Notes under the pieces: generated by a model | The model's input: only the letters and a program-made list of their open reading frames with translations | Databases searched by the model: none | Told to the model about the DNA's origin: nothing | Translations under genes and position numbers: made by a program | Assembly: GCF_000787575.1 (NCBI RefSeq) | Contig: NW_012236515.1 | Span: 541,892-605,891 of the forward strand | From: Acytostelium subglobosum LB1 | Lineage: Eukaryota > Evosea > Eumycetozoa > Acytosteliales > Acytosteliaceae | Direction of reading: 5' to 3' | Length of the DNA stretch: 64,000 nucleotides | Part shown: positions 1,641-37,124 of the stretch, piece after piece | Position numbering within the stretch: the stretch's first letter is position 1 | How the letters are laid out: each line of letters begins with the position of its first letter

Positions 1641-4104
1641 ATGAGCAATCATTACCACAATCATCATCACCAGCACCAACAACAGCAACAACAGACACAG
1701 GACAGACGCAACTCTGTAGTATGCAAGTTCTTCAAGAGTGGCAAATGTCTATCTGGCAAGAACTGCAAGTACTCGCACGATATGTCGAGCAGTGATGCAT
1801 CATCATCATCGTCATCATCATACGAAGGAGGCAACAACAGCAACAGCGGCAGCAACTCAACAGTGGATCACCATCATAACAACAATACACAACAAGCTGG
1901 CAATGGTGGAGGAGGAGGAGGTGCACCATTGTGTAAATACTACCTTAATGGCTTCTGCAAGAGTGGCTCCAAGTGTCCATACCTACACGACTCAAAGAAG
2001 GCTGCCGCCGCCAACAACAACAGTAACAGCAACAACACAAGTCCCAACAGCAACAATACAAGTCCCAACAATAACAACAATGCACATCAACAGCAACAAC
2101 AACATAATAACAATAACAATAACAACAATAACATTAATAACAATGCTACAACAACAACAACTACAACAACAATCAATGTATCAGACCACCCTATATTATC
2201 ATCACCAAGACCAACGATGGAGTCATTGATGGGCAACAGCATATTCAACAGCCCTGGACACCAGACATCAATACATCCAATATCCGCCCTGAACAACAAT
2301 AGTGCTTCATTCATCCCAACCATCCCCATCAACATCCACCATCATCAACATCAACAACACCACGAAGGACATGTAGGACAACCTAACAGCATCAACAATA
2401 ACAGCAACAGACAATTCATCGATGACAACCATCACCATCAACAGCAACAGACTCAGCAGCATCATTATAGCCACGCCCACCCGGTGCCCTTCCTCCCGGC
2501 GATGGGCACTCATACATCATCCTCGTTCCGCGACTCTATCTTGGGGGAGTTCTCGTCGCCCCGTCAGTCACTCTCGTCGATGATGGACCATGGCCCCACG
2601 CCCAAGTCGCCCCTGCTCACTCAGGCCATGGGCAACATTGCACTGTCTCCGTCGAGGATCACCGGCCTGTCGTTCTTCCCCAACTCGCCGCGCACACTCC
2701 TCTCCACGTCGCCCTCGTCACCGTTCAGCCCCCAGTTTGTCGCGCACAACGCCACGCTCATGTCCTCATCGCCATCGCCCTTCTATGCCACGGGCTTCAA
2801 GGAGCCATCCTCGGAGGAGGACGATGACGACGACGATGACGACGATCTCTTTGACTTTGATGATCGTGGATTGAATGTGATAGATGACAACTATGATGAC
2901 ATGGCGTTCGATCCATATGACCATCAAAGACTAATGACCAAACAGTTTGGTGAGCTCAGCATTGACAAGACTACATCAACATCAACAATCTCTTCGTCCA
3001 ACAACACTGATCAGCCACAACCAACAACATCAACAACAACGGCAGCTGCGGCAACAACAGGAGGCTTGGACACATCGGATCCCAAGAAGCCACTGTCCTA
3101 CCTCGAGGTCTTGAAGCAGAACCTGGAACTCCCGCCCAACTTCTATTTGGAAGATGACACGTCCACAACATCAACATCCAAAGATGACTCTAAGACAGAG
3201 GTAAGAATGATCGGTTGCAGAGCCCTTAGCATGTTCTACCCCGCCAGCGGGATACTTACCAATCCATCCACACACAAAGGCACTATGTCTGTTCTACTTA
3301 CAAGGTGGATGTAGGAATGGAGACGGTTGTAAATTTATACATGGCAACATGTGCGATCTGTGTGACAAGCCAATGCTTGTGCCAGGACATGCTGCCCAGA
3401 ATGATGAGCACAAGAAGCAGTGTTTGGCAAGCAGACAGAGAATGGTGCAGCGCGAGCATATTAGGAACTTGGAGTGCGGCATCTGCTTCGAGTCGGTCGT
3501 CGAGAAGAACCAGCGATTCGGTCTGCTGAGCCACTGCGACCACATCTTCTGTCTGGACTGCATCCGCGAGTGGCGCGGCTCCACCGCCAGCGGCGCACCA
3601 CAGCCACTGAGCAACAGCAACAACTCGGTGCGTCTCTGCCCTATGTGTCGCGTCAACAGCTACTTCATCATACCGAGCGACGTGTTTGTCTCGCAGGAGG
3701 AGAAGCAGGAGATCATCGACGAGTACAAGTCCAAGCTGTCGACCATCCCCTGCAAGTACTTCAACAATGGCAAGGGCAGCTGCAAGTTTGGCACCAGCTG
3801 CATGTACGCGCATCTCAACGCCGACGGCAGCATCCACCGACCGACTGTGCGCAAGGTGCAGTCGTCCACGGGCGATCTCGTCACGCTCTACTCGACACAG
3901 CTGGGCATGTTCATTGCGCCGCTCATCCAGCAGCAGAAGCAGGAGCTGGAACGAAGGCGTCGCGATCAAAAAGTGATGAGTGACACTGCGTTTGAAGAGT
4001 ACGACGAGGCTACCTTTGGCGAGGATCACAATGACGACGATCATCATCATCATCGTGCACAATGGCAACAACAAGATGATGATGATGAACACGAATTACA
4101 GTGA
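1641..4104 (+). CDS. Makorin-type CCCH/RING zinc-finger protein, probable E3 ubiquitin ligase
   Basis: Exons 1641-3200 and 3280-4104 (79-base intron, phase 0) give about 794 residues. CCCH fingers lie at about 28-46 and 98-116. A third, at about 523-541, begins two codons after the splice, which supports the intron. A makorin Cys/His segment (545-568) follows, then a C3HC4 RING (586-643, CGIC ... CPMC) and a final CCCH finger (678-698). This order, CCCH-CCCH-CCCH-Cys/His-RING-CCCH, is diagnostic of makorins, which ubiquitinate proteins and bind RNA. The roughly 400 residues between fingers 2 and 3 are Asn/His/Gln/Ser-rich with an Asp/Glu run, much longer than in animals. The first ATG follows a CAAACAAA leader. 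The family call is firm; the in vivo target is unknown. Confidence 0.92.
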
Positions 4105-11397: not shown

Positions 11398-14300
11398 ATG
11401 GTGTTGTACAAATGTAAGTAATGTTAAAGTTAGTTCATGACTTCATCTTGATCCCCACTCACACTCACTCACACACACTCGATCAATCACTCAAACCGAA
11501 CGAACGACAAAACAAACAAACACAGTAATACTAGTATTGTTGATCATATTATTGGTATCTTTTGGAGGATATAACAATAATAATAATAATAATGTACATG
11601 CATTTAATATAGAATCGGCAACTATAACGCCAAAGTTTGCCAACTTGTTGGGCGCAAACATAAATATAGCAATGATAGAGGTCACCTTTGACCAGGATCT
11701 ATATCGAATCGATTCGATAAGTTGTCCAAACTTCACATGTCCGGCTCCAGCCGCCATCGATTGCTCTTGCGACTACACCAATCCACTGCGATGTGGACAC
11801 CCCGTGTCGGACGATCCATCGTGTCCGCCATGCCCCACCTTGTACAACTACACATTGGTCACACACGAGCTGCGGCCTCCCGGCATGTACCCCGTCGTGC
11901 AGCTGCCCTACTGCGGCAAAGACCTCACATGGACGACCATTGAGGCCAACCGCACCTACACTATATACGATCTGTCGCAGGAGGTCGAGTTCCGCTACAA
12001 GGCCCAGCCCTACTGCGAATCCGTCACCATACGCATACGTATGGTCGGTGGAGAGACCAACGACAATGCCGTCCTAATCAATCATCAGCTATGGGCCTAT
12101 CAAATATCAAACATTGGCGAGATCATGCGGGACATCTGCCCGGGCAATCAATCATTGCAACAGGATTATCCGTCAACAAGTGGCATCTGGACGGATGGCA
12201 CATACTTTATCAAGTTTAACGCATCACTGGGTTCGGGCCCGTATGAGCTGACAGTGCTGTCGGCGCCCATCGCGCCCATCATCAAGTCCGAGGCCAAATG
12301 CACGACGGTCGATAAATATCATCGATGTCTATACGATGGCCAACTCATACTCGGACACAACTATGACTACTACTCATTCAATGTTACGCGACCCATGACA
12401 CTGACCATGTCGTGCAAGGGCATGGGCACCACTTCACCGCGCATCTACGCCTCGGACGAGATTGTCTACCCATACCTAATGGACCACAAGTGGACGGACA
12501 GATTCGACAGTCGACTCACCATCCCCATCGAGCCATACCCCAACGGCACGGCAAAGATACTATATTACCTCATTGAATCTACAACCCATTCTTACAACTA
12601 CACCTGCTCGATAACAAGTAGCGCGCCGACATGGATGCGCCCGCTGGTGTCGGACGGCGATCAGTACATAGAGTCCGATCAGAACGACCTGCAGAACTCG
12701 GCCGACCTGAGGACGAGCAACGGGTCGATTCTGAATGGCAACGGCAACTTTAATGGCGGCTTCATCAACATCTTCCCCAGGACGTTTGGCAACCCGTTCT
12801 GGCCAGTCATGGGAAACCTCATCAATAGCATCGGCAGCCTGTTCCCAGCTGGCAACATCGACATGTTGGGCACGTTCGAGCGGGACAACGCACCCAAGAA
12901 GCGCACATTCCAGGCGGCCGTCGTCCTAAACTACACTCTGCCCGAATGGCACCTGGTCAAGCTGTTTGACGAATCCGAGCTGACCAGTCTGCAGCTGGTG
13001 TTCCGCGGCGGCCTACTCGTGTTTAGTGATGGCACGCCACTACGGGGCAATGTGTCGCTCACGCTGGGCAGCCTGCCAACCGAGTGCGACTACGACAAGT
13101 TCCAGATCACGTACGATACATTGGCCGAGTTTGACCAGGGTGTGCTCCAGTACAGCACATTGACCAAGTTGACACGGGCACGCTACATGATTGACATGTT
13201 CATGTTCCGTGACGCTTGGCTCGTGTGTCAGAACCAAGCCGATCAGATGTTCGAGCTGACCGAGGCCGATCTAGTTATAAACACAACAAGCTGCAACTAC
13301 ACGCTGCCCTACCAGACAGATCCATGTTGCAACTTCACGATCTCATTCTTCCAATGTTGCCAGCAAAGACTCGCCACCGTCCCCTCCAAGGGATTCCAAA
13401 TCGACAAAGGTATGTATATCTCCTTCCTTCGCATCATTCCAATCACTTACTCAATCAATCAATCAGCTCGAGTCCAGTCAAAGTGTTCCAGCCCACAATG
13501 TACAGAGTCATTGATATCTGATTACTTTGCCAATTGGCTAGAGGTGGACAGTGGCAAGTGTGCTATACTAAAGACAACGGCAATGGAGTATGCAGTGACA
13601 GAGTATAATCTAATGTTCCTCAAAACAATGGCCCAGTGTAAGGCTGTCTATGACAACGTGCGATGCTCTCGTGATGCCGACTGCCCAGACAGTCCATGCA
13701 ACGTTGTGACCAGGCAATGTGAGACGCCAGTGCTCACCCAGGACAAGCGATATCTTGATGTAAGTTAACTAAATGCGATGGATTGGAGCAGGGATAGTTC
13801 CATCATTCACTGACTCACTCTCGCCATTCAAACAATCAATCATTTACATAGTGCCTGACAAAGAATGTATCATTGTCAGTTGTTGACTATATCGCGCACA
13901 AGTACTTTGGACTGAATGGCACATCGCCATCACTGGTGGATAGGATGTTTGAGTTGTTGGCAAAGCAGGACTGTACCACTACAACTGGTTTGGTGTACCG
14001 CAACCACATCGAATACACTAGCTACCTTGATTTCAACTTGACTGGACATTGCCTGCCCAACAAACCAGTCTACGACATGGCCATTTCTGATCTACACAAC
14101 ATATGCTTGGAGATATTCTATTCAAACTACAAGGAAATCAATTATAACGACACCTGTGACGAGGTGCAGCTGTGTCCGTGGTCTGGCTGCAACATATTGG
14201 ACGACGATACTTGCACTAGCAGTTGCGAGACCAAGCCAGAGTTCTGCGGCTACTGTCCATCATCGACTTCTGCCTGCGTCGACTTTGCCTCGCTGACCAA

Positions 14301-16872
14301 CAAGTCCAGTTGCGACTCGCAGCCACATGTTTGTTTGTTGACCGATGGCCAATACAGACTGGTGGCGAGCGAGCAGGAGTGCCAGCAGCTGGGCCGCTGC
14401 ACAGAACCATGTGGATACCAATGCACAGGATACAAGGGATGCGTCTCGACCAGCATCCACAACGAAACAGAATGTATCGCAGTGCTCGATCACACATGGG
14501 ACAACACCTTATCACTCTGTCTCAACACAATGACCCAACAGCAGTGTGTCGGTACCGCGGACAATCAATGGGAGGACTGCTCATTACGCGAGTTTAGTGA
14601 GTGTCTGTCTCCATTAAGCGCGTCACTGTGTGTTGCCAAGCCGGTCGAATGCACTTCAGCCGATCAATGTGAGCGCGAGTCTGGAACATGCTCCGATCAA
14701 TTCTTCTTCACGCCAGAGGTCACGCAGTTCTACCCGCCACAATATGGCAAGTGTGTACATGGTCACACTATAATCATGCCATCACCCAACAAGACTATCT
14801 ATTATCCAATCTCTGGCTGCGACCCCTACGAAGACCTCGAGTCCCAGATGGGCTGTTTCAGTGCCGAAGAGGTGATCAGCAAGGAGGAATGTCTGGCGCG
14901 TCCAGGCAGCCGTTGGTGGACACCGGCCAACGCGTCGACCTGCGAGACGATCAAAGGCTGTTCCATGAAACGAGAGATGACTCTCTTCCCCAACAATATA
15001 TTGTTCAATGACATGGACGAGGAGACGTGCGGAGGATGTCCAATGTACCGCGAAGAATATAAATGGACCAACAGATTCACACTCAGGCGCGGCAAATGGA
15101 TGCCCGGCATGATGGTGCCCGCGACTTGGATGAACACCACCGACGCAATGGTTCACCCGACCGCCAATCGACAGACCCTCATCTTGCGCGAAGTGTATAA
15201 CTTCTTTCAGGACAACTATGACGAGTACACCAAGGTCGACGATGTGAAGCGTGGCACAGTGTGTAGGGCCACGCGTATTAGACAGACGCTCGAAGCGATA
15301 ACCTGTAGCTGCTCGGGTCCGGGTGGCCCGCAGTGCTTCAAGTCTTCGTCGCAGACCATTGGCTCGACCAAGGTGTGCGAGCTGACCGAGTCCCGCTACG
15401 ACTTCTCCTTTGGCTGGGTGGTGTTCTTCGAGGGCACCGTGGGCTACACGTGCCAGACCGTCGTCATGAGCCAGATCAATCGACAACTCTACAAGGCGCC
15501 GCCCCAAGAGTCGCTGACATCCAGTTTCTTCACGTACACCAAGCTGGACGACTACGCCATCCTCCGCGATCAGAAGCAGATGGGCGTAATACTCAGCGAT
15601 GGCTTTGAGCTGCAGCTCGAGTCGCTCAGCCAGTACCATCTGTGTCTGCGCATCGAGAACGATTACGACCCGGACCGCTACCCCACCCTGGACTTTGGCG
15701 AGATGTCTAGCGACAACAATATCGAGGCGCTCAATATCAATACAAGCGTCGAGGTCAAGAACAACGCAAAGTACCTGTGTGGCATGATCCCGCACAAGGG
15801 CCTTGTGCGGTCGTACTTTGCGATCGCGCGCCAGGGCCAGCGCGCCTTCCTGGACATGACCACCAACGTCATTCTCTACTTCCTGGCCGTCATGTTTGGC
15901 ATCGACGCGTTGTTTGGACTCGTGCAGCTCTACATCATTCTCTACAAGTTCAGTCTGAAGCGTCTGGAGCTGTCGCTGGTGCACTTGCTCATTCTCACCG
16001 TGACCGTGTTCGCCGCCGTGCGCTCGGTCTACTTCTTCATGGTGCCCACGGGCAAGCTGTACGCGTCGCCCGTCGCCGACTACAGCATGGTGGTGCTGCC
16101 CACGTTCATCTACTTCACGTCGTTCTCGATCATTGTCATCCTGTGGTTCGTGTTCATTCGCAATATGCGCGAGGGCACCAGTCGATCATTCTCGCGCAAC
16201 TTCATTCTTCTGATGGTTGGCATCAACTTTGTGCTCTACTGCACGTTCATCACGATCGTCCTGGTGTTCAACTACTCGTCCGAGGCCAAGCTCAGCGACT
16301 GTGCCGGACGTGTGCCCGTCAACCTCGCGCTCATGTCCCAGAAGCGGGTGGTCCTGATCATCTACGCGAGCATCCAATCGTTCCTGTCCCTGGTGATTGG
16401 CGCGGCGTTCGTGGTGTTGGGTCGCACGATCTTCCTGATGCTGCGCGAGTTCTCCAAGGACCGCACACACGCCGAGCAGATCAAGTACATCCAGCATCAG
16501 AAGAAGATCTACACAATCACTCTACTATGCTCGGTTGGCTTCATACTGCATTGTGTGTTTGTGTTGGTGCTGGTGTTCATGAGCCGTCCAAGCATCATAT
16601 TCAGTTTCATTGGATTGGTTATCACTGAGATCATTCCATCAACATGTATCCTGATCAACTACAATCAGATAGAGGTGGGTGATCTTCGCCAATCACTGGC
16701 CGAGTTCACAAAGATGATCCAAGAGTCCATTGCCAACGCCAACAATGATGCTACCACCTCCACTGGTTCCTCTGCCACGGCCACTTCCTCCTCGTCCGCT
16801 ACCACGTCATCATCCTCATCCAATGTCTCTGAAGTCGAGATGAAGAACCTAATAAGGACACGAAATGACTAG
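11398..16872 (+). CDS. Giant Cys-rich 7TM receptor-like protein, copy A (TOM1/THH1-like membrane region)
   Basis: Exons 11398-11413, 11526-13409, 13467-13759 and 13852-16872 close in phase to give about 1737 residues. The start lies in a 16-base first exon whose codons complete a signal peptide (MVLYKLILVLLIILLVSFGG). A roughly 1380-residue ectodomain has dozens of paired cysteines and many NxS/T sites. Seven hydrophobic helices follow (about 1404-1670), with a Ser/Thr-rich cytoplasmic tail. The loop GRTIFLMLREFSKDRT and the overall 7TM pattern recall the TOM1/THH1 family, a class of GPCR-like plant and protist proteins. That assignment is from memory. A role as surface receptor or adhesion GPCR is inferred. 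The next gene is a tandem paralogue. Confidence 0.85.
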
Positions 16873-17307
16873 TCCATTGTCCGGTCCAGTCCGTCCAAGC
16901 TGTCCAGACATCTCCCATACTCCCATCTTCATTGACAATGTAATGTTATAAAATTATATTATTTATTACAAAGTCGTGATCATTTACTTGGCCCCAACAG
17001 TGTTGGGTAGGTTCCATTCTTTGAACAGCTCATTTCGCGAGATTGGGGGGGTGAGTTGGACAAGCCTCATGGGGGACTCAACGAGCCTCGCTGTCTGTTT
17101 TTTGACTGGTCCTAGGAGTAAAACAGGACCTCAATCAATCAGTACATGTTCAGTTCAGAGGATATTGTCAGTACACTACAACTATTACTATAACTATTAC
17201 TACTACTATTACTATTATTACGAGGAAAGAGGCTGAGGACCCAAAGTTGTTGATGTGATTGCCTTTCATTTCATCATCAACCATTATTCAATTACACTCT
17301 ACTAGTG
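16873..17307. other. Intergenic spacer between tandem receptor genes
   Basis: The 3' flank of receptor A and promoter of receptor B. It contains a moderately GC patch (16980-17140) with G and T runs and then a TACTATTACTATT repeat. The open frame at 16976-17236 has no coding character. No RNA gene is recognised. Confidence 0.55.
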
Positions 17308-20300
17308 ATGTCATTCAACTCAAGTAAGTAGAGAGTGAACCCTCGCCCCAACCCTCGCCCTAACCCTCACCCTCGCCCACTAGTTCTACAACAACAAATA
17401 TCATTTTATACGATCATCATTATTATAGTTGGTGCGCTATGTTGTAATATTGATGTTCAAGCATATAATGTACAGTCGGCAACAGTTAGGACAAAGACTG
17501 TCAATTCATTGGGCGTAGACTTGAGCGTGGCGATGGTGGAGGTGTTGTTTGATCAAGAGTTATACACACTCGATTGGATCGGTTGTGCAAACTATACTTG
17601 TTCACCTCCACCAACTATCGACTGTACATGCGACTACACCGATCCCCTTCACTGTGGCCGTCCAGCATCCGGCCACCCCTCATGCGCGCCCTGTCCACAA
17701 TCATATAACGTCACAGTGGCACAGGTTAGCGAGATTGGCATTCAATCAAACACTGTAATACAAGTGCCTTACTGTGACTACGCGAATGAACAATGGATAA
17801 AGATCGAGGCCAATCGAACTTATGAGTTCAACAACTTGACGTCACAGTCTATAGAGTTGAGGTACAAGGCACAGACAGCCTATTGCGAAGGTCTATCACT
17901 CAAGATGATCACAGAGGGTACACGTGGCAACATCACAATCAATCATCAACCGACTATAACAGGAGTATTTGGACAAGGTACCACCAAGTTGGAGCTATGT
18001 CCTACTCATGACATGGACAACTACATGTCATCATCATCATCACACAACAATCACCAACCAGACGACTGGTTGGACGATGGCCCAGACAACCCATCAATGT
18101 CACATCCACTATACTCTGTATATTGGACCAATGGAACATATATATTCTCAATCCAAACCGATTACATACCAACAACATCAATCAAATTCATACTTTACTC
18201 TGCTCCAGTATATCCTGAGCAAGACTCCTCCTCCCCATCACCAACTTCACAATCATGTGATAACACATTGTCCAACACTACCAATCATACATGTTTGAAT
18301 GATGGACAACTGATACATGGTCATAACTTCCAATATTACACATTCACAGTTGACAGGCCGATGAATCTAACCATCGGATGTTCACATTATACCAACGTAT
18401 TCGTTTCCGATGTCGATCCAATCCCATCCTACACCGTCCACACCTGGTTATCACATTGTAAGTTATGTACTGGTACCATTCCAATCAATCACACTAACAT
18501 TCGATCAATGATAGCTGCATGGGGATACATGTCAATACCAGTTGGACCACATGAAGATGGACGACCAAAGGTGTTATATATATTAATGGATACTTTGTAT
18601 CAGAACTATACATGCGCGATCAATAGTAGATCACCTCATTGGTTGGTTCCACTGATAGACCATCAGGACACTTCAACAAAGTATGCATCGTCCAAACAAA
18701 ATGATCTATACTCCAGCGCACAGTTTATACTCAGTGGACACACCAATGATGATGAACGAGATATCCCCAACCTCATCGCACTGTTCCCAAGACAATACGC
18801 CAACCCATTGTGGCCTGTTCAATCGGACCTCTTTGACATCTCCCACACCCTCGGCCAATCATGGATGAAGGTGCACGGACTCTTTGACGAGTATGACAAT
18901 GCACCAAAGAGGAGCAGCTTCCAGGCTGTGATTGCACTCAACTATTCAATCATTCATCGCGATCCTGTCATCACCAACAACATCTCTGTGTTTGACAATG
19001 CGTCAATCTGGTTCCAACCCGGTCGCCTATACTTTGGTGATGGCCAGCCCCTGTCTGGAATGATCCCTCTCACAATGGACACCTCACCAATCACTTGCGA
19101 CTACAATCAATTCCAAGCACAATCAAAACTACTCGCAGAGATCAATGCCAAAGTGATCAAGTATAGTAGTTTCAATGAGATACTTCAGGCCAGGATGAAT
19201 GTCGACATGATAATGGCGCGAGACACATGGCTGGCGTGCCAGCACCAAGCCAACAAGATGCTCAACCTCACCGACACTGTTGCCTACATCAACACAACCA
19301 TGTATGAGTGTGATTTCGAGGGCCCAGGCTACGACCTCAATCCATGTTGTAACGTCTCGTTGCAATATATGCAATGTTGCCAGCCCCACCAGGTGACGAT
19401 CACGTCTAAGCAACACATGATTGATCGACGTGCTGTTGAGTCATCGTGCTCGAGTCCCAAGTGCACCGAGTCAGTCCTGGAGGACTACTTCACGACATGG
19501 CTAGACCTCTACAATGGCAATTGTGACACATTCACTCAGAACGATGTCCCAACATCACTGTCATACATCCAGGTGATCGATGAGTGCAAGGCCGTGTACA
19601 TCAATCCTACAAGATGCAACAACGACACACAATGTGAACGACTTGGACTAGGCCAGTGCGACCTTATCACACGGCAGTGCCTGCCATCAATAGAGTATCA
19701 GGACCGACAGTACCTCCAATGCCTGGCGAACGACATCTCACAATCAATCATCGAGTTTGTGTCGCATAAGTACTTTGGATGGTACAATGGCACTGCAAGC
19801 TTTGCCAACGCGCTCTACTCATTCATGGTGCGCCAGGACTGCAACACAGGCATTGGCACCGGCCTAGCCTACCGCACGTCATTGATCTACGACCTCCCCG
19901 ACCTCAGCCCGACGGCGCAGTGCCTTCCGCCTCAGACTGCGTACGACCCATCATTCAGATACGTACACGATGCATGTTTGGACTTTAGTTATACAAGGAG
20001 TAGCGCTCTGTCATTGAATGCTGTTACATGTTCGCTGGCGACTATCTGCCCATGGACAGGCTGCAACACATTGTATGATCCAGATTGTGCCAATGAATGT
20101 GGAGTCAAGTCCGAGTTCTGTGGATACTGCTCACAATCAAATTCAACAAAGTGCATTGACTTTGATGGCCTTGGTACACCATGCGATCAGCTTGGACATG
20201 GACAGAGACAAGTATGTTTGTTGCCCAATGGACAATATCAGCTTGTTGAAAACGAGTTGGAATGTCAACAACTTGGACAATGTACCGAGCCATGTGGATA

Positions 20301-22762
20301 TCAATGTACTGGATTCAAAGGATGCATCTCAATCAATGTCCACAACGAACCAGATTGTATCCAACTCGGTGATGGATACAAATGGGACAACATATCATCA
20401 CTCTGTCTCAATGATCAATGTACCTCATCCAGCGCAACGACTCAATTTGAAGATTGTTCATCACGCGATTACGGTGAGTGTTACTCACCACTAGGCCCAT
20501 CACTTTGTGTTGCCAAGCCAATTCAATGTAGAACGAAGGATCAATGTGAACAACACTCTGGTACATGCTCCGATCAGTTCTTCTTCACTCAAGACTATGT
20601 GCCATCGTATCCACCTCAGTTGGGCAAGTGTGTCACCAATCATTCACTGAACAAAGTTCGTCAACCTTACTATGTCCATGCATTTGGTGCGTGTGATGTG
20701 GAGTCCGAGTATGATTCACCAATGGGCTGCTTCAAGATCCAACCAGTGGCACTCAGCAAGAATGAATGCATTTCGCAACCTGGCCAAGCATGGTGGACAC
20801 CCTCAACAGCATCAACATGCGAGTCATTCTTTGGATGTAGATTCAATTTCCGTGATCGAGTTGGATATGCATTGTTCCAGAATGAGGACAAGTATACAGA
20901 GATGGATGAGAGTACCTGTGGTGGATGCTCCGAGGACACATACAGCTACAAGTGGCAACAAAAGTTCAAACTCAGACGTGGACAATGGATGAATGGTGTG
21001 ATTGTGCAACCAAGAAAGATCCAAACATCATTGAGACAGGCAGCCACAATCAGTCCAACATTGATCCTGAACGATGTCTACAACCTCCTTCTTCCAAGCA
21101 TCGAGGAGTACTTCCACGTCGACTTTCTCAAACGAAGTACAATGTGTCGCGTATCCCGTTTGATTGAAAGTTTGGACTCGATAACTTGTTCATGTTCCGG
21201 GCCACTTGATGCGCATGGACAATGCTTCAACTCATCAGCACAAACAATTGGAACGAGCAAGCCATGTGAGAATGAGGCGTCTTCATTCGCCATGTCATAT
21301 GGATGGATCAATTTCACCAAACAATCAGTGAACTATGCATGCCAAGATGTTTGTTGTTGGACAGATCAGTCGACAATTGTTCAAGGTGCCACCGATAGAG
21401 ACACTCACATCCAGCTTCTTCTCATACCAATCATTGGAGGACTTCTCAATCTACCTTGATGGCCATGTTGTTGGTGTCATACTAAGTGATGGCGTCCAAG
21501 TCGAGACACAAAGTATTAACTCATACTTGATATGTCTTCAACTGCAACAAACAGATGTGAAGTTCATCAGGCTTGACTTTGGCTTACAATCAGGTGATCA
21601 ATCAAATCAAAGAGTTGTTCCACAAGGTGTGGACGTTTCAATATTGATCAAGAGTGATGGTCAACAGTACTTGTGTGGCACGGTACACCCCAGAGAAGTA
21701 ACCAGCACCTACTTTGCATTGGCCATTACAGGTGATAGTAAGACACCTTCCATCGATCGTACCACCAACATCATCATGTATGTGTTGGCATGCCTGTTTA
21801 TGTGTGGCGCACTCTTTGGCGCGGCTCAGCTAGGTGCCATCCTGCTCAAGTTCACATTCGCACGACTCCAGCTCTCATTGGCGCATCTCCTCATTCTCAC
21901 CGTGACAGTGTTCACATCGGTGCGATCGATCTACTTCTTCCTTGTGCCCAACAGCAAGCTGATTGGCTCGCCATTGGTGGACTACAGCATGGTGGTGTTG
22001 CCAACATTCATCTACTTCACATCATTCTCGATCATTGTTGTTCTATGGTTCATGTTCATCAAGAACATGCGTGATGGCGCCACTCGATCATTCTCAAAGA
22101 CATTCATACTGTTGATGATTGGTATCAATCTGGTGTTGTACTGCATCTTTGTTGTGATCATCTTGTTGTTCAACTATTCGTCATCGATCAAACTCAGTGA
22201 TTGTGGCGGACGAGTACCAATCGATCTGTCACTCTGGTCACAAAAGAGGATTGTCTCAATCACTTATGCGAGCATTCAATCATTCCTGTCACTTGCCATT
22301 GGAACAGCATTCGTGGTGTTGGGCCGCACAATCTTCATCATGTTGCGAGAGTTCTCCAAGGACAGGACACAGGACGAGCAGGTCAAGTACATCCAGCATC
22401 AGAAGAAGATATACACAATTACAGTATTATGTTCAGTTGGATTCATATTGCATTGTGTATTTGTGTTGGTGTTGGTATTCATGAGTCGACCAAGCATTGT
22501 ATTCAGTTTCATTGGATTGTTGTTGACAGAAGTCATCCCAACAACATGTATCCTGTTCAATTACAATCAGATACAGTATGGTCAATTACATGAAGCATGG
22601 ATCACATGTCTAATGACTATCAGATCAATCTCGTCGTCATCAATGGACTCGACCACCACAGGACCATCATCGACCACGCTGTCATCGTCATCTGATATCT
22701 CATCCACGTCCACCACCTCGACCTCCTCTGACGTTGAACTACGGACCCTTCTCAAGCACTAG
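17308..22762 (+). CDS. Giant Cys-rich 7TM receptor-like protein, copy B (one apparent frameshift)
   Basis: Exons 17308-17323 and 17384-22762 give about 1797 residues if one T of the TTT at 21350-21352 is ignored. The first exon is 16 bases, as in copy A, and completes a signal peptide. The ectodomain follows copy A cysteine by cysteine (for example CNYTCSPPPTIDC-like and EPCGYQCTG segments). The 7TM part (about 1468-1735) is almost identical in its loops (YIQHQKKIYTIT). The two later introns of copy A are absent. Codon use is more AT-rich than in A. As written, the frame breaks just before the conserved GQISRQL segment and would give a soluble ectodomain. A sequencing error or a young pseudogene are both possible. 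Confidence 0.82.
21350..21352 (+). other. Apparent +1 frameshift in receptor copy B
   Basis: Reading frame changes at a TTT run. Removing one T restores a continuous protein that matches copy A on both sides (TCQ-x-VV-x-SQIN-RQL in A). No splice sites could explain the shift. Confidence 0.7.
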
Positions 22763-23304
22763 TCAATACTTCATTCAACTTTATATGTAAATAAAAGACA
22801 CTGACAATCTTAAGATGATCTGTGTGACTAGCTAGCTAAATTAAATTGGATGTCCCGTGTGTCTTATTGTGCATCATTGATTGAATGATTGAATACAAAT
22901 TGATTGGTCTTCATGAATTCTCAATATATGACTCATTTCTTATTATCTCTTATCTGTACATACTATCATTATCTCTCCTACTTTATCTCTGTTCATTATT
23001 ATTACTTCAAATTATTCATTCGTCTCTACATGTCTCTTACTGGTTCCAATTTTGATGAGCTCAGTATCTTTCGTCTGTATAGTATCAGATATATTAAGTA
23101 ATTGTGTCTGACATTACATTCTATATATATGGACGCAATGTCTTACATACACGCGAATTCCATTATAGGATCACCTGGTGACCTTGTTCGTAAGTATATA
23201 TGAGTGATATATTTGTTTCAACACTAACCATTGATGAATTCAACTGACAAAGTTCATCGACATCTCCATATAAAAAAAAAAAGAGATATTAAAAATCAAA
23301 AGGT
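22763..23304. other. Intergenic, no gene seen
   Basis: AT-rich 3' flank of receptor B and downstream flank of the reverse-strand tRNA. The poly-A run at 23271-23283 is a T run on the tRNA strand and could back up Pol III termination. Confidence 0.6.
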
Positions 23305-23377
23305 CGCTCCTGGTTGGGATCGAACCAACGACCGTTCGGTTAACAGCCGAACGCTCTGCCGACTGAGCCACAGAAGC
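23305..23377 (-). tRNA. tRNA-Asn (anticodon GTT)
   Basis: On the reverse strand a 73-base cloverleaf is visible. Acceptor GCTTCTG pairs with CAGGAGC (one G-U), discriminator G. The anticodon stem TTCGG/CCGAA encloses loop CTGTTAA with anticodon GTT (complement of 23342-23344). The T arm is GTTGG-TTCGATC-CCAAC. There is no intron and CCA is not encoded. T-rich sequence follows the 3' end, as expected for Pol III termination. Confidence 0.95.
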
Positions 23378-23469
23378 AGTTGAAAAAAACTAATTGTTGG
23401 TCATGTTTTATGCGATTATTTTTGATTTTTTTTATTGGAGATGAAACTGAATGGAGTTCATGAACACTT

Positions 23470-26055: not shown

Positions 26056-29000
26056 CTAGTCGTCTGGAACGATCATCTTGGTTAAAGCAATCTCGTAATA
26101 ATCATCATAGTCGTATTCCTTGTCCTCGTCATCAATGTCGTCCATGCCGGATTCGCTGACGATGGCGCCATACTTGTCAAAGCTACCTCCATCCACTCCC
26201 ATGTGTCGTCGTCCGTCCTTTGTACCACTACTACTAATACTGGGCGAGTCATCGCCAACTTGTCTACTCATTAGAGTTGAGAACTCATTGTCCAGGTCTT
26301 CTTGAGCCTGGGGCGAGCCATAGTGTCCGCGAGTGATGAGGAACAGTTTGTGATTGAGGAAGTCACGGATGGAGTGACGGTAATGTAGGTAGATGTTGAC
26401 GACCAGGTGAACTGAGAAGATGACCACACTGGCAATGATGATCCAGTCCTCGACGGCAGACTCGAGGTCGTTGTCCAGGTACAGACAACAGATGAACAGA
26501 AGACTGAGTGAGACAAGCTCAATACGGTTCTCCTCGCGACGTTTGTAAGGCTGGCACTGTATCTGCATGACGACATTGATCAGCGAGACGGTCACCAACA
26601 GCAGTGCACGAAGTGGGTTGGTGATATCCATGATGGACATCAACACAATGAGTAGTCTTCGCACCAACAGTATCACATCCCAATAGTAGTACTGAGTCTT
26701 GTACTTGAGAAATGAACACTCCGTACACCTTGATGGTGGACGGCTCCTTCTGGCGATGTCTGTTCATGAACAGCAGAATGAACAGCACTAGCGGCATGCC
26801 CAGCACGACCGTCAGCATCGCGTAACTGACTTTGAGTGCTACGCCGTATGCCGTGCCTGAGCACTGAACAGAGATGTTGTTCACTAACACTTCGGAGCCA
26901 ATGCCAATGAGAGTGCAGAAGAACATTGAGAAGACTGATGTCGCCACGGGCGAGTAAACAAACAGCCATATCTTGATCAGTGCGCTGGCGAATGAATGTT
27001 GCATCTTTAGCTGTCCACTCTCCATCTGTGTGATCATTGTTATGTTGTTGTAGTTGTTACTGATGCTGCTGCGTACGTAGTGCTTGTAGAATGATCGCAT
27101 CAATGTGATGATACCAAGTATCGCGATCAATATCGGTGTGATCAGTAGTGTCAGGTAGTGTCGCTTGTAGAATGATAGTGGACCGGGACAGATTGATCCG
27201 ATGACTGAGGAGCCGCCACTGTCCAGACGGAAGTTGAGCAATGCCAGTATGCTAAAGTTGACGCCATTGGACAGCACCATGATGGTTTGGAAGAAGTAGA
27301 CGACAATGTTCATCACGCCTGAAGCCGTGTCAGAGGTGTGCGTCCACAGCACAATCACAACCATGGCAATGAAGAAGATGATGGCGATTGGAACACTGAT
27401 ATGGTCGCAATGCACACAGTTGCCCATCCATTGATAATAGTTTTCGGTCTCATTGCAGCTGCTACACTGCAGACCGAAGGTATGTGATTGGCATGTGTTG
27501 TTGCCAAGGCAACGACTTGAGCTGTGGCACTTGTAGACAACGCGTGGATACTCATTCTCGTCGTACCAGTAGCCTGGTCGAGCATCGACCTGCGTTCCAC
27601 CGGCGCAATATGAGTTGTCTGGACATGGCAAGCATGTCTGGCCATTGTATCCGTATGAGCCTAGCGGGCATTGGCTGCACAGTGTCCCTGAGGCGGTAGG
27701 TTGTTGGCCCGGGAAGCAAGCCATGATGGTGGGCAAAGGCGGCCATTTCGACAGGGATGATTGAACGGTCGTTGCATAGGAAGGTGATCGAGGCGGTATT
27801 GTTTACCTTGCCAATGAGCTGCACGTTTGTGAAGTTGGCGTATCCATTGACGACGGGCATCATGCTAATGGTCACCTCGTTGAGTCGCAGGTAGACCAAC
27901 TTGTTCAAGCTGACAGAGATTGGCACGGTCTGATTGAACAGGTCAATCACCGTGACATAGCCAGTGAATGTGGTCACGTTGGAGATGATCACCAAGGGGA
28001 ACTGACTCTCATCGAATTGCAGCTTGACTGGATTCGAAGCCATAATCAAACCGTATGGTGCCGTATTGTTGGTGAATATACACTCGACAATGGTGATCAT
28101 TTGCGACACGTAGGTAGGTCCAAACACTATGATGATTGCTCCTCCATCTTCCGCTTGATTAGATTCGAATGTACTACCACGTAATGCTACAATTCCCGAT
28201 GATGTCATTGATATTACACCTCCACTATAAGCAGTATTGTCTAAGGGGTTGAAGGTTGAGGGTTAGGCGAGGGCAAGGGCGAGGGTAAGGTGGGACCATA
28301 GATGGTACATACTATAGAAGTATGAGTGATCGATGTTGACTTGACTGTAGTCTGAGAGTGTGAAGACGGCGCCACGTGATCCATAGTTGGAGATGAAGGT
28401 TGAGTTGACAACATTGCACCAGGCAGATGAATCGATCATGATGAGTTGCTCCGCTTTGTTGTCGATGATTGTACTGTTGTTGATATTCACCTGGCCGCCC
28501 TGCTCGGTGTCGATCATCGTGTTGTAGTTATTGGATATCGTTGAACCGTGAAGGAAGAGCGTCGAGTCACTACTGACCACGACGAACGTTTGTGTGTTAT
28601 TGGTGATGGTCGAGTTGATGATGTAGACATCATTGAAGCGGATGAGCATTGTGCCCCGCTGGCTTTCAAACCTAGATCCTGTGATCACACTGTTGCTCGA
28701 TGAGAGCAGGAATGTGTAGGACGGTGAGTTGAAGTTGTTGTAGAATATACTGTCGGCAAGGTAGACATATGTTTGTGAAGAATAGACCACGCTGCCGGTG
28801 GTGTCGCGCACCTCACTGTCAAGAATGGTCAGCTCGCCCAAGAATGTGGAGACGATCATCAGCATCTGAACGTTGAAGATCTGCGTGTTGTTGATGGTGA
28901 GTGTCGACTCGGATGATTGGATCAGCGAGGCGTCCAGTAGCTTGCTATTCAGGTCACTGATGATGCTGTTGCGGATGGTCACGATCGAGCTCTCGGTGAT

Positions 29001-30683
29001 GAACAGGCCGATGCCCTGGAGGTCTTGCACATTGGTGATGTTGACATTGTCTATATCTACCGTGGACGATTGTGTGATGTACATGATTCCAAACTCGCCC
29101 AGGTAGTTGGTATTGTTGTTGAACACTGAGTCTGAGATCCAGGCCTGCGAGTGAGTGATGCACAGTGCACCATTGCGATGATTCAGGAATGATGAGGTCG
29201 TGATGTAGACGTCTGTCACCGATGACAACGAGGTCACACACTCTCCATCGTTGTTGGAGCTCTGGCCGCCATCAAACAAGCTTCCAGTGATGCTCACCGA
29301 GGTGGCGCGATCCACATATAGTGCGAACTCGTTTCGCGTTAACGTGGTATCGGTGATGTGTAGTCTTGCCGGCACAGTGAGTGCATTGAAGCTGAGCACA
29401 TTGACAGCCGGGCCGAATGAAGATGTGACCGATTGTGAACAGTTGGTGATCGTGCAATCGTTGAGATATAGGTCCACGTTTCCACTGGCCGTCACAACAC
29501 CCTTGTTGGCGTAGTCTCGACTGTTGATGACCAACACATTGCTCATGACCACCGTGCTGACCGATCCCTCGAGCAGCAGAGCCGCACCACCATTGACCAT
29601 TGCGCTCGAGTAGGCATTGGTGATGGTCACGTTGGCGATGTTCACCTGAATGATGCCACCGGCCACGTGGAACGCCTGTAGTCTGTCCTGGCCATTGATG
29701 ATGGTGCCGTCGCGTGAGGTGCCAATGATCGACACGGACTTTGTGATTGAGTACCAGAATGTGAAGCCGCAGTACACACCGTCCGCGAGGAAGATGTTGT
29801 ACGTTGGCATGATACGATACAGGGCCATTGAGAGTGAGGAGAATGGCGAGTTGGCAGATCCATCGCCATTGCGGTCTGATCCCTTGACCAAGTCCACATA
29901 GATATCGGATGAAATATATGATGGGTAGTTTGGCAGGACTGTCACGCCCGACAAGAAGAAGCCTTGGAAGTCATCGTTGCCCAATGACCTGGGCGACGAG
30001 TAGTCAAAGTCGCCAAAGTCGTTGACACTTCGGGTCGAGGTGAACTTGATCTTATTGGTGGGCGAGCTGAAGTTGAGGTAGTAGGAGATGTCTATGTGGT
30101 AGTCGATGATGTTTAGCGTGTTGGAGAGCACCATGACGTTTATGTCGTTGATGCTGACGCGGAAGGAGACGGACGACGACTTGATCTGGAAGGAGTTGGA
30201 CGAGCACGAGAAGTCGAGAAACATTGACATGTTGTTGGTGAATGGACGCACGTCAAAGTCCTGCTCCAAGGTGATCGAGCCCACTGTGCTACCTTCAAAG
30301 TATGCATAGAAGAAGCCTTCCAATGGTTTATATATCTGTCCACACATATCATCATCACAATATATTACTGAACGACCATTAGTCGATGTATTTCTCCATG
30401 GTGATGGCAGTTGATTTCCAACATTATAGAATCCCCAATCTCCAATGATAGGTTGTTCTGTCTCTGTTTATATATATATATTATTATTATTTGTTTGATT
30501 GAATGAGTGTGATTGAATGAATGAGTGAATGAGTGTGCGAGTGAGTATGAATGAGTGAGCGAGCGAATGAATGAATGATGATGCAAGTAACATACCTGTA
30601 CATTGTGGTTGTGCACTTATAGTATTGATTGATATTAATACTATCAATAATAATATTAACAAAGAAGTAGTATTTACATTCAT
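26056..30683 (-). CDS. Parallel beta-helix, Cys-rich, multipass surface protein (two apparent frameshifts)
   Basis: Exons (reverse strand) 30683-30596, 30457-28313 and 28240-26056 give about 1471 residues if two single-base insertions are ignored. A signal peptide (MNVNTTSLLILLLIVLISIN) leads into a Ser/Asn-rich ectodomain. From about residue 210 this becomes a long run of 'I-x-x-S-x-I-x-x-N' strands typical of right-handed beta-helices. A TNFR/EGF-like Cys cluster follows (GTLCSQCPLGSYG, CPDNSYCAGG). About nine membrane helices come next, including the WDVILLVRRLLIV helix and the CQPYKRREENRIELVSL motif seen in large protist TRP-like surface proteins. The acidic tail is cytoplasmic. Family likeness is from memory. 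A surface sensor or channel-like role is inference. Confidence 0.8.
26714..26720 (-). other. Apparent +1 frameshift in the beta-helix protein, membrane part
   Basis: The frame ending in KVYGVF must shift by one base to reach FLKYKTQYYYWDV, the start of the last membrane helices. Removing one base at GTTCATTT restores it. The only GT-AG pair nearby would make a 27-base intron, which I consider implausible. Confidence 0.6.
27741..27745 (-). other. Apparent +1 frameshift in the beta-helix protein, before the Cys cluster
   Basis: Removing one G from the GG in AATGGCCGCC (reverse strand) turns SIIPVEM into SIIPVEMPPLPTIMACFPG, which leads directly into the Cys-rich domain. Without this change the frame stops early and the Cys cluster has no start. 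Confidence 0.65.
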
Positions 30684-35398: not shown

Positions 35399-37124
35399 AT
35401 GGATAATGATGAAAAGGTCTTACTATTCTTCTCATTAACAAACTCATCAGATCCTGAAGAGGCTTTGTTATTGTTAGAGGTATGTTTGATCACCAATCAA
35501 TCAATCAATCAATCAATAATGATCTAACATAATAATAATAATATGATGAATAGCAAAATGGATGGGACCTGGATGCGAGTGTAAATCATTACTTTGCGAT
35601 ACATGATACAGGCAATGATAGTGATAACTCAACCAGTGGTCATTCGAGGAAGGATAGTGGAGGTGGCAGTGGAAGTAGTAGCAGCACTAATACAGGTGGG
35701 ATGATGGATCATGGTTATGACGAAGAGAATGTTCGAGCACCAATCCCTGCCATGCTTGACACAATGATCGACCCCTCACAGATTGCCAACTACATACCAG
35801 GCATACCCATCAACAGAGTGCGAGGTCCCAATGGAAACAATGTATTCGAAGCATTCAGAGACTTTACCTCAGAGGGCAAGATTGGACGTATGTGTGATGC
35901 AAGGCTGGCTGGCGTGCTGGGCCGATCGCAGCTCACTAACCTCCCCTCCCCTCCACCTCTAGCCCTGCCCAACACAATGAAACAGACACCTAAACAACAG
36001 GCATTGGCTAAGCTGTATGAACCACCTTATGATGTACTGTCGTTTGGTACTTTTGCGCAGGTCAAGCAACTGGCCGAACAGGCAAAGTTGTACCTACTGG
36101 TGAATATACAGGATGTGACCAACTTTGACTGTCAGATATTGAACAGAGACACATGGTCGGACAAAGGACTCAAGTCCTACATCAAGGATCACTTCATCTT
36201 CTGGCAGGTCAATCACAACAATCCCGAGGGTGATATGTACTGCACTCTGTATCCAGTCACCTCTTATCCTCACGTCTCCATCATTGACCCTACAACTGGA
36301 ATGAAGAAGGATATGCATGAAGGTTACTTCAACTCTGACGATGCTTATAAGTTCCGTAAAGTGTCATCCGTCTATCATATCGCGTCAATCTCGCGCGCGT
36401 CGACCCTAACACCTACCCTCTCTATTCTAGTGCAACACTTTATTATCTCACAACAGGGACACAGCCAACCGGAGTCGAATAAGAAGGCAAGGAAGTATAC
36501 ATCAGAGGAGGAGGAGTTGGAGATGGCCATCCAACTATCACTCGCTGGTGCAAACAATGGTTCAACATCATCAGCAACATCATCAACAACAACTGCAGGC
36601 AATCAACAACAAAAGTCAACCTCATCATCATCAAAAACAAAGACAAAGGATAATGAAGATGATGATGATGACGAAGATGATGACGACGACATTGATGAAG
36701 ATGATGAGGACGAAGATGATGAACCACTGGAAGACGACGATGATATGGCATTGGAGGCCTACGAGAAGAAGCCCGTCGAGTTGCCCAAGACCACAATCCC
36801 AGACACAATTGGAACAGTTGGCGATTGTATCATTCAGGTATGCTTGACCCTCCCAATCAATGAATCAATCAGTCAATCAATTAACACTCCTACTTACTCA
36901 TCATGTAGATCCGTCTACCTGGCGGCGACGTGCTCAAGGGCAACTTCAACGCAAGTGACAAGATACAGAACATTTACTACTTTGTCACACTGAAGAAAGG
37001 CATCAACAACTTTGTACTATTCACGCCCTTTCCAAAGAAGGAGTTGGTAGGCGACGTGCTTGGACGCACTCTACAAGAGGAGGATCTTGCGCCTCGAGCC
37101 ATACTCAACCTGCAGGAGAAATGA
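35399..37124 (+). CDS. UBX protein of the UBXN7/Ubx5 type (p97/Cdc48 adaptor)
   Basis: Exons 35399-35479, 35554-35887, 35963-36355, 36431-36837 and 36909-37124 close in phase to give 476 residues. The order is: a UBA-like N terminus (DEKVLLFFSLTNSSDPEEALLLLE), a Ser/Gly linker, a UAS thioredoxin-like domain (about 155-275, with LYLLVNIQDVTNFDCQILNRD), a UIM (about 294-307, EEELEMAIQLSLA), an acidic Asp/Glu run, and a C-terminal UBX domain (about 406-476, IRLPGGDVLKGNF). This is the UBXN7 layout. Such proteins link ubiquitylated substrates and cullin ligases to p97/Cdc48. Two 75-base introns are multiples of three without stops and so hide inside the open frame. Confidence 0.92.

Follow-up and report, generated by a model that had tools for sequence, protein, structure and literature searches.

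Two neighbouring giant genes in the genome of the dictyostelid Acytostelium subglobosum LB1 raise the question of what kind of protein is made when a secretion signal and a large Cys-rich ectodomain are followed by a region of seven transmembrane helices (7TM). The genes, designated here gene 1 and gene 2, lie in tandem between positions 11398 and 22762 of the window, that is, the whole stretch of 64,000 nucleotides analysed (assembly GCF_000787575.1, contig NW_012236515.1, positions 541,892 to 605,891 of the forward strand). Sequence comparisons place both genes in a dictyostelid family of giant membrane proteins with 16 loci in this genome, whose members are most likely sensors at the cell surface, with an ARF-like GTPase as the favoured partner inside the cell; we assign to this reading a probability of about 0.5. 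The same plan recurs at 14 loci besides genes 1 and 2, and the architecture of these two genes can therefore not be attributed to chance.

Organization of the two genes and of their family

The features on which the analysis builds are listed below by window position; the exon structures of both genes were drawn by hand, with sequence and alignment as their only basis.

11398-16872, + strand: gene 1, four exons, 1737 amino acids plus stop (open reading frames, GT-AG sites, alignment to gene 2 and paralogues)
11398-11413, 11526-13409, 13467-13759 and 13852-16872, + strand: exons of gene 1, with GT-AG introns of 112, 57 and 92 nt
11398-11602, + strand: predicted signal peptide region of gene 1 (16-nt micro-exon, intron 11414-11525, start of exon 2)
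11603-15846, + strand: ectodomain of gene 1, residues 32-1396, enclosing introns 13410-13466 and 13760-13851
15856-16662, + strand: seven-helix region of gene 1, THH1/TOM1/TOM3 domain (PF06454), approximately residues 1400-1668 (Pfam, hydropathy)
16663-16872, + strand: C-terminal tail of gene 1, Ser/Thr-rich, plus stop (translation)
17308-22762, + strand: gene 2, tandem paralogue, with exon 1 at 17308-17323, intron at 17324-17383 and exon 2 at 17384-22762
17464-21760, + strand: ectodomain of gene 2, with a frame change inside near 21345 (alignment to gene 1)
21761-22558, + strand: seven-helix region of gene 2 (PF06454, 27.7 bits), 75% identical to gene 1 residues 1396-1670

The product of gene 1 begins with a predicted signal peptide (mean hydropathy of 2.68 over residues 1-19), followed by an ectodomain of 1365 residues with 73 Cys (5.3%), 61 of which are conserved in at least 80% of the paralogues, at least eight, aligned at the position. 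The whole protein contains 26 N-glycosylation sequons, and no internal repeats were detected by self-BLAST at E ≤ 1. Hydropathy analysis of gene 1 revealed seven hydrophobic segments within approximately residues 1400-1668 when overlapping windows were merged, and the mean profile of 12 members likewise showed seven, with touching peaks merged. These 12 members, used for all hydropathy and charge means, are gene 1 and 11 others; gene 2, C35c, C35e, C49c and the fragment mentioned below were set aside.

A preliminary description of this DNA had proposed tandem paralogues, each with a signal peptide, a Cys-rich ectodomain and seven helices. Its coordinates proved exact, and the gene 1 product has 1737 residues; gene 2, on the other hand, is not one open frame. 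Its predicted exon 1 is a micro-exon that, as in gene 1, measures 16 nt, and a 60-nt intron follows. Within the long exon, one frame is open to about 21345 (1326 residues), where a second takes over and continues as far as the stop at 22762 (472 residues). At the break (21340-21350), gene 1-like sequence in both frames abuts, and an intron at this point was rejected for that reason. A 16-nt GT-AG stretch found there was also discarded as an intron, since it codes for residues shared with the paralogues and would be implausibly short. Because the frame changes near 21345 without room for an intron, gene 2 appears to be either a broken gene or the product of an assembly error. A tRNA-Asn (GTT) gene is located close downstream of gene 2, at 23302-23378 on the minus strand.

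The extent of the family was determined by six-frame searches of 30.73 Mb in 56 contigs, and all counts of loci are lower bounds. A search with the gene 1 7TM resulted in 17 loci (19 matches), and the ectodomain, searched in two parts, in 16 loci (48 matches; 15 of the 16 in the other search), all of them among the 17. The remaining locus, at C49:728 kb, holds a fragment of the 7TM that contains stops. The two genes had previously been presented as a pair, and they are indeed adjoining paralogues, but they form part of a family established here as 16 loci plus this fragment.

The tblastn matches show collinear homology over the ectodomain and the 7TM. Furthermore, gene 1 and nine of its paralogues each have one open frame, 942 to 1578 amino acids long, that runs from the Cys-rich part into the 7TM, so that a false junction, in which a gene model joins a Cys-rich gene with a separate TOM1-like gene, was excluded as a description of these loci: ten members carry an uninterrupted frame across the junction. 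In addition, no locus with an ectodomain lacking a 7TM was present among the matches of these lower-bound searches in this genome. As we found no point in support of such an artefact, we consider its probability practically negligible, and the architecture is taken as established at the sequence level.

Phylogenetic analysis of the 7TM from 13 giant proteins and eight short TOM1-like proteins separated the giants from the short proteins by a branch with support of 100/99 and gave gene 1 and gene 2 as sisters, also with 100/99. The tree, from which C49frag, C49c, C35c, C35e and the short loci L051 and L052 were left out, is midpoint-rooted, and long branches meet in it, C51 and the link of TOMa/TOMb with the giants being among the places affected; that link has weak support (71/57). 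One joining of ectodomain and 7TM, followed by expansion, would be the simplest reading of this tree.

Five family loci are clustered on contig C35 at about 193-228 kb (L035, L036, L038, L039 and L041). Within this cluster, identity between C35c and C35d is 99.9% for 4.7 kb and drops to 84% thereafter, and C35d and C35e share 275 identical nt and another stretch 80% alike; these patches would be due either to gene conversion or to assembly collapse. Searches for relatives with two short peptide patterns gave 90 pattern matches in bacterial and archaeal genomes and 333 in viral contigs, none of which was confirmed.

The seven-helix region and its relatives

The 7TM of both genes matched the Pfam family PF06454 (THH1/TOM1/TOM3), with 28.2 bits for gene 1 and 27.7 bits for gene 2 against a cut-off of 25, over positions 16 to 256 or 257 of the 273 in the profile; the gene 1 7TM alone reached 32.3 bits. 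Eight of 11 paralogue 7TMs matched the same family at E ≤ 5, and none of 11 member 7TMs matched any other Pfam family of the G protein-coupled receptor (GPCR) type up to E 5. When the profile was applied to the 17 giant-family loci, 11 were recovered at E ≤ 1e-3 and 10 exceeded the cut-off, two of these only with neighbours in frame. Across the whole genome PF06454 was matched 27 times, two short TOM1-like genes with 147 bits being among these matches. Judged by eye, a frame at L001 ~3067-3500 resembles an ARF-family GTPase; it is situated downstream of a short TOM1-like gene, at a distance of about 850 bases.

Comparison by hhalign of an 11-member family profile with the two short TOM1-like genes resulted in a probability of 91.6 and an E-value of 8.2e-7, colinear over transmembrane helices TM4-TM7, and the control comparison with one cAMP receptor exon of the same genome gave a probability of 0.2 and an E-value of 0.28. 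Reversed 7TM sequences of both genes had no match up to E 10. The motif (T/S)E-hydrophobic-hydrophobic-P in TM7 was present in 16 of the 17 rows of the family alignment, the 17th stopping short of TM7, and the short TOM1-like genes show SEIIP and CEILP at this position. On account of the PF06454 matches, the hhalign result with its control, the reversed controls and the TM7 motif, the 7TM is, by its sequence, a diverged THH1/TOM1-type domain. The link to TOM1/THH1, which had been proposed previously, is borne out by these data, and the comparison with other receptor families returned no better score elsewhere.

The extracellular part was analysed with Pfam on gene 1 exons 2 and 4 and both gene 2 frames (E ≤ 5) and on 12 long family exons (E ≤ 0.5), and nothing except PF06454 exceeded its cut-off; the best weak match of the ectodomain was Kelch_3, with 14.4 bits against a cut-off of 22. 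No match to GAIN, GPS, 7tm_2, 7tm_3, Venus flytrap, Frizzled/Fz or Dicty_CAR was obtained in the same exons, frames and rows or in the member 7TMs, and the GPS-type pattern H-(LIVMF)-(ST) does not occur in gene 1 residues 1251-1420. These results bear on the earlier proposal of an adhesion-GPCR-like design on a different 7TM fold. As in adhesion GPCRs (family 2), a secretion signal, a long extracellular part, seven helices and a short tail follow one another, and in this respect the proposed layout stands; unlike them, the giants have no 7tm_2, GAIN or GPS match, belong to another 7TM family and carry an ectodomain in which Pfam recognizes no domain. What the comparisons establish is a sequence family different from that of other GPCRs; a difference of fold goes beyond this evidence.

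The giants resemble THH1/TOM1/TOM3 and the short TOM1-like genes of the genome in the nearly full-length profile match, the TM6 and TM7 motifs and the colinear TM4-TM7. TOM1/THH1-type proteins are usually short and have no large ectodomain, a trait that is not part of the profile; the giants differ from them in having a signal peptide and about 1360 residues of ectodomain, in lacking (R/K)xPP and in lying on a separate side of the tree. From class C/glutamate-type and frizzled receptors they are set apart by the missing 7tm_3, Frizzled, Venus flytrap and Fz matches. With the dictyostelid cAMP receptors (Dicty_CAR), represented in this genome by exons at three loci with 305-373 bits, they share seven helices and the genome, but no sequence link, as seen in the hhalign control and the missing Pfam match. 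Regarding RSF (Remi-sans-famille) receptors, one source (PMC12716839) reports a weak structural link to TOM1, occurrence also in amoebozoans, no extra domains and a motif NxLQxxMNxL between TM6 and TM7. The giants are similar to them in the possible TOM1/THH1-type link and the occurrence in amoebozoans, and differ in the large ectodomain and in NxLQxxMNxL, which is found in 0 of 17 rows, some of them incomplete.

Conservation of the membrane part and variation of the ectodomain

The helices had been described as more conserved than the ectodomain, and this pattern was confirmed in both comparisons made. Genes 1 and 2 are 75% identical in the 7TM, compared with 32-50% in the ectodomain bins, and their signal and tail reach 27% and 33%, respectively. 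When gene 1 is compared with its paralogues, identity averages 42% over the 7TM (12 loci) and 26-38% across nine ectodomain bins (8 to 13 loci per bin). The latter values are based on 13 loci, and a locus entered a bin only when its aligned portion exceeded half of that bin; gene 2 was excluded, and L041 was dropped as a near-copy of L038.

The ratio of nonsynonymous to synonymous divergence (dN/dS) between the 7TMs of gene 1 and gene 2 is about 0.17 (0.177/1.065), a value that indicates purifying selection on this region between the two sequences, and synonymous sites in the ectodomain are near or at saturation. For residues shared by the two genes, the 7TM shows the same codon in 117 of 199 cases and the ectodomain in 251 of 535 (Fisher p 0.005); four-fold sites agree in 41 of 84 and 72 of 218 cases, respectively (p 0.012). 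Since the greater likeness of the 7TM (15856-16662 vs 21761-22558) extends to synonymous sites, gene conversion may be part of the cause of the extra similarity between genes 1 and 2. Against conversion alone stands the finding that unlinked paralogues, too, are best conserved in the 7TM.

This pattern bears on whether the proteins might be mainly adhesion or recognition molecules, in which the 7TM would only anchor the protein or serve as a platform for assembly and would not itself signal. Such a role would suit an ectodomain that is large, divergent and rich in Cys, as well as the tandem copies and the close neighbourhood of five loci on C35. A plain anchor would nevertheless be expected to drift, and the 7TM is the best-conserved part of these proteins, so that we regard a pure adhesion role as unlikely. 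The combination of a variable ectodomain with a constant membrane part suggests instead a system of many cues and one output.

A proposed role at the cell surface

The orientation of the proteins in the membrane was deduced from the signal peptide and the charge of the loops. The mean net charges of inner loops 1-3 are +2.3, +1.3 and +4.8; outer loop 2 is also positive, with a mean of +2.3. Because of the signal peptide and the positive inner loops, and notwithstanding outer loop 2, the N terminus would lie outside. In the mechanism that we favour, the secretion signal would direct the Cys-rich, glycosylatable ectodomain of about 1360 residues to the outside of the cell (or to a lumen), where this fast-changing part would bind a macromolecular cue, such as the surface of another cell, bacteria or matrix. 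The 7TM, which is better conserved, would pass the effect of binding on to a cytosolic partner common to the family, located at the positive inner loop 3 and the short, Ser/Thr-rich tail. Judging from plant TOM1, an ARF-like small GTPase similar to ARL8 would be a likelier partner than a heterotrimeric G protein.

The location at the cell surface has to be weighed against one on inner membranes. GPR137 is probably kin to PF06454. The giants might be endolysosomal or phagosomal proteins, with their 7TM on inner membranes as in GPR137 or TOM1. Their Cys-rich part would then face the lumen and serve either in protection or in the sensing of digested bacteria. One report describes GPR137 as lysosomal (PMC12716839), and a Cys-rich, glycosylatable ectodomain would suit the lysosomal lumen. 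The occurrence of 16 loci with a fast-changing ectodomain would be a better fit for variable partners outside the cell, and for this reason we rate the endolysosomal location as rather improbable.

The choice of partner is closely linked to the possibility that the giants are true GPCRs, whose TOM1-type 7TM would couple to heterotrimeric G proteins like the dictyostelid cAMP receptors, with the ectodomain as a ligand trap. A rice survey places PF06454 proteins in the GPCR superfamily (PMC11195488), and the layout with the N terminus outside and a positive inner loop 3 would agree with this. On the contrary, plant TOM1 was the sole one of eight candidates that did not bind the G-alpha subunit GPA1 (PMC2530877), and the motifs E/DRY, NPxxY and CWxP were found in 0 of the 17 rows, some of them incomplete. 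Coupling to heterotrimeric G proteins therefore seems to us a fairly unlikely alternative; it would be compatible with the role of a surface sensor, from which it differs in the partner. Plant TOM1 is also reported to interact with the small GTPase ARL8 in another study (PMC3234234). Based on this interaction, on the missing GPA1 binding of TOM1 and on the absent motifs, a small GTPase would be the favoured partner, with modest confidence.

Several observations weigh against the reading of the giants as surface sensors with a TOM1-type 7TM and an ARF-like GTPase partner. The architecture, the 7TM family, the size of the family and the pattern of conservation are read directly from sequence, and the surface location, the class of ligand, the signalling and the coupling partner are deductions from them. 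The PF06454 scores exceed the cut-off by a few bits only, and six of the 17 loci are beyond the reach of this profile at E ≤ 1e-3. In the hhalign control the template was a single one-exon sequence, weaker than the two rows of the TOM1 alignment. The motif (R/K)xPP after TM7, present in both short TOM1-like genes, occurs in 0 of 17 rows, a count in which one row stops short of TM7 and several break off only a few residues beyond TM7, where YNQ replaces RK. E/DRY, NPxxY and CWxP are likewise absent from these rows. Gene 2 is broken in this assembly, the locus at C49:737 kb has a stop in the 7TM, and two C35 loci contain gaps or unread bases there. The 16 loci are thus not all intact, and the working genes may be fewer.

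Structure prediction adds to these points. AlphaFold models computed from two-row alignments reached a mean predicted local distance difference test score (pLDDT) of 34.5 for the N-terminal ectodomain and 39.7 for the juxtamembrane part with the 7TM, both too poor to use. The latter shows, in agreement with hydropathy, seven long helices, which come after a run of strands, and no conclusion rests on it. A Foldseek search of the PDB with this second model gave 261 matches at E ≤ 10 and none at E ≤ 0.001; its top row, the adhesion GPCR CD97, was disregarded (E 0.031, TM-score 0.15). A search of solved structures with the ectodomain yielded nothing convincing, the best being TMH4C4, which we take to be a designed transmembrane bundle, with E 7e-4 and a quarter of the profile covered. 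The ectodomain fold and the 7TM bundle are accordingly unproven.

Altogether, we still favour the reading as surface sensors. A broader proposal, tentative and in our view less likely than not, is that the family constitutes an undescribed receptor class: a single joining of an ectodomain with a TOM1-type 7TM would have been followed by expansion to 16 loci, giving sensors with variable outsides that signal via an ARF-like GTPase, a convergent counterpart of the adhesion GPCRs that may serve in discrimination of kin or bacteria or in aggregation. It has to be noted that the readings considered here are not exclusive, and the confidence figures attached to them sum to slightly more than 1.

The window has a GC content of 44.5%; a published table gives 55.0% A+T for A. 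subglobosum and 66-78% for the other dictyostelids with an entry (PMC4334915). The rest of the window contains a CCCH zinc-finger protein adjoining a RING and CCCH protein (1641-3311 and 3349-4101, both on the + strand), a protein with a right-handed beta-helix region (28263-30344, - strand; PF13229, 68.1 bits), a thioredoxin-like protein (35701-36990, + strand; PF13899, 48.8 bits) with a ubiquitin-interacting motif below cut-off, and a sodium/hydrogen exchanger (61079-63961, + strand; PF00999, 171.5 bits).

Regarding novelty, no description of a TOM1/THH1 7TM with a large ectodomain was found in the open-licence literature, a weak negative judged mostly on titles and the beginnings of abstracts, and database annotation elsewhere may already label these genes as PF06454. 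The dictyostelid GPCR survey of Hall et al. 2023 covers eight amoebozoans and families 1, 2, 3, 5 and 6, and its main text has 0 mentions of TOM1, THH1, GPR137, PF06454 or Acytostelium (PMC10445921). As the species is outside its set, that survey could not list these genes, and in the scheme given there a TOM1-type family would have no place.

If the 16 loci encode signalling receptors, they would provide candidate receptors in a group 2 dictyostelid; the use of cAMP as an aggregation attractant is reported to be unique to group 4 (PMC5055082). In that case the layout of adhesion GPCRs would have arisen a second time, on another 7TM family. TOM1-type 7TMs have been studied in plants as host factors of viruses, and the giant proteins of Acytostelium would allow asking whether TOM1-type 7TMs are receptors at all.

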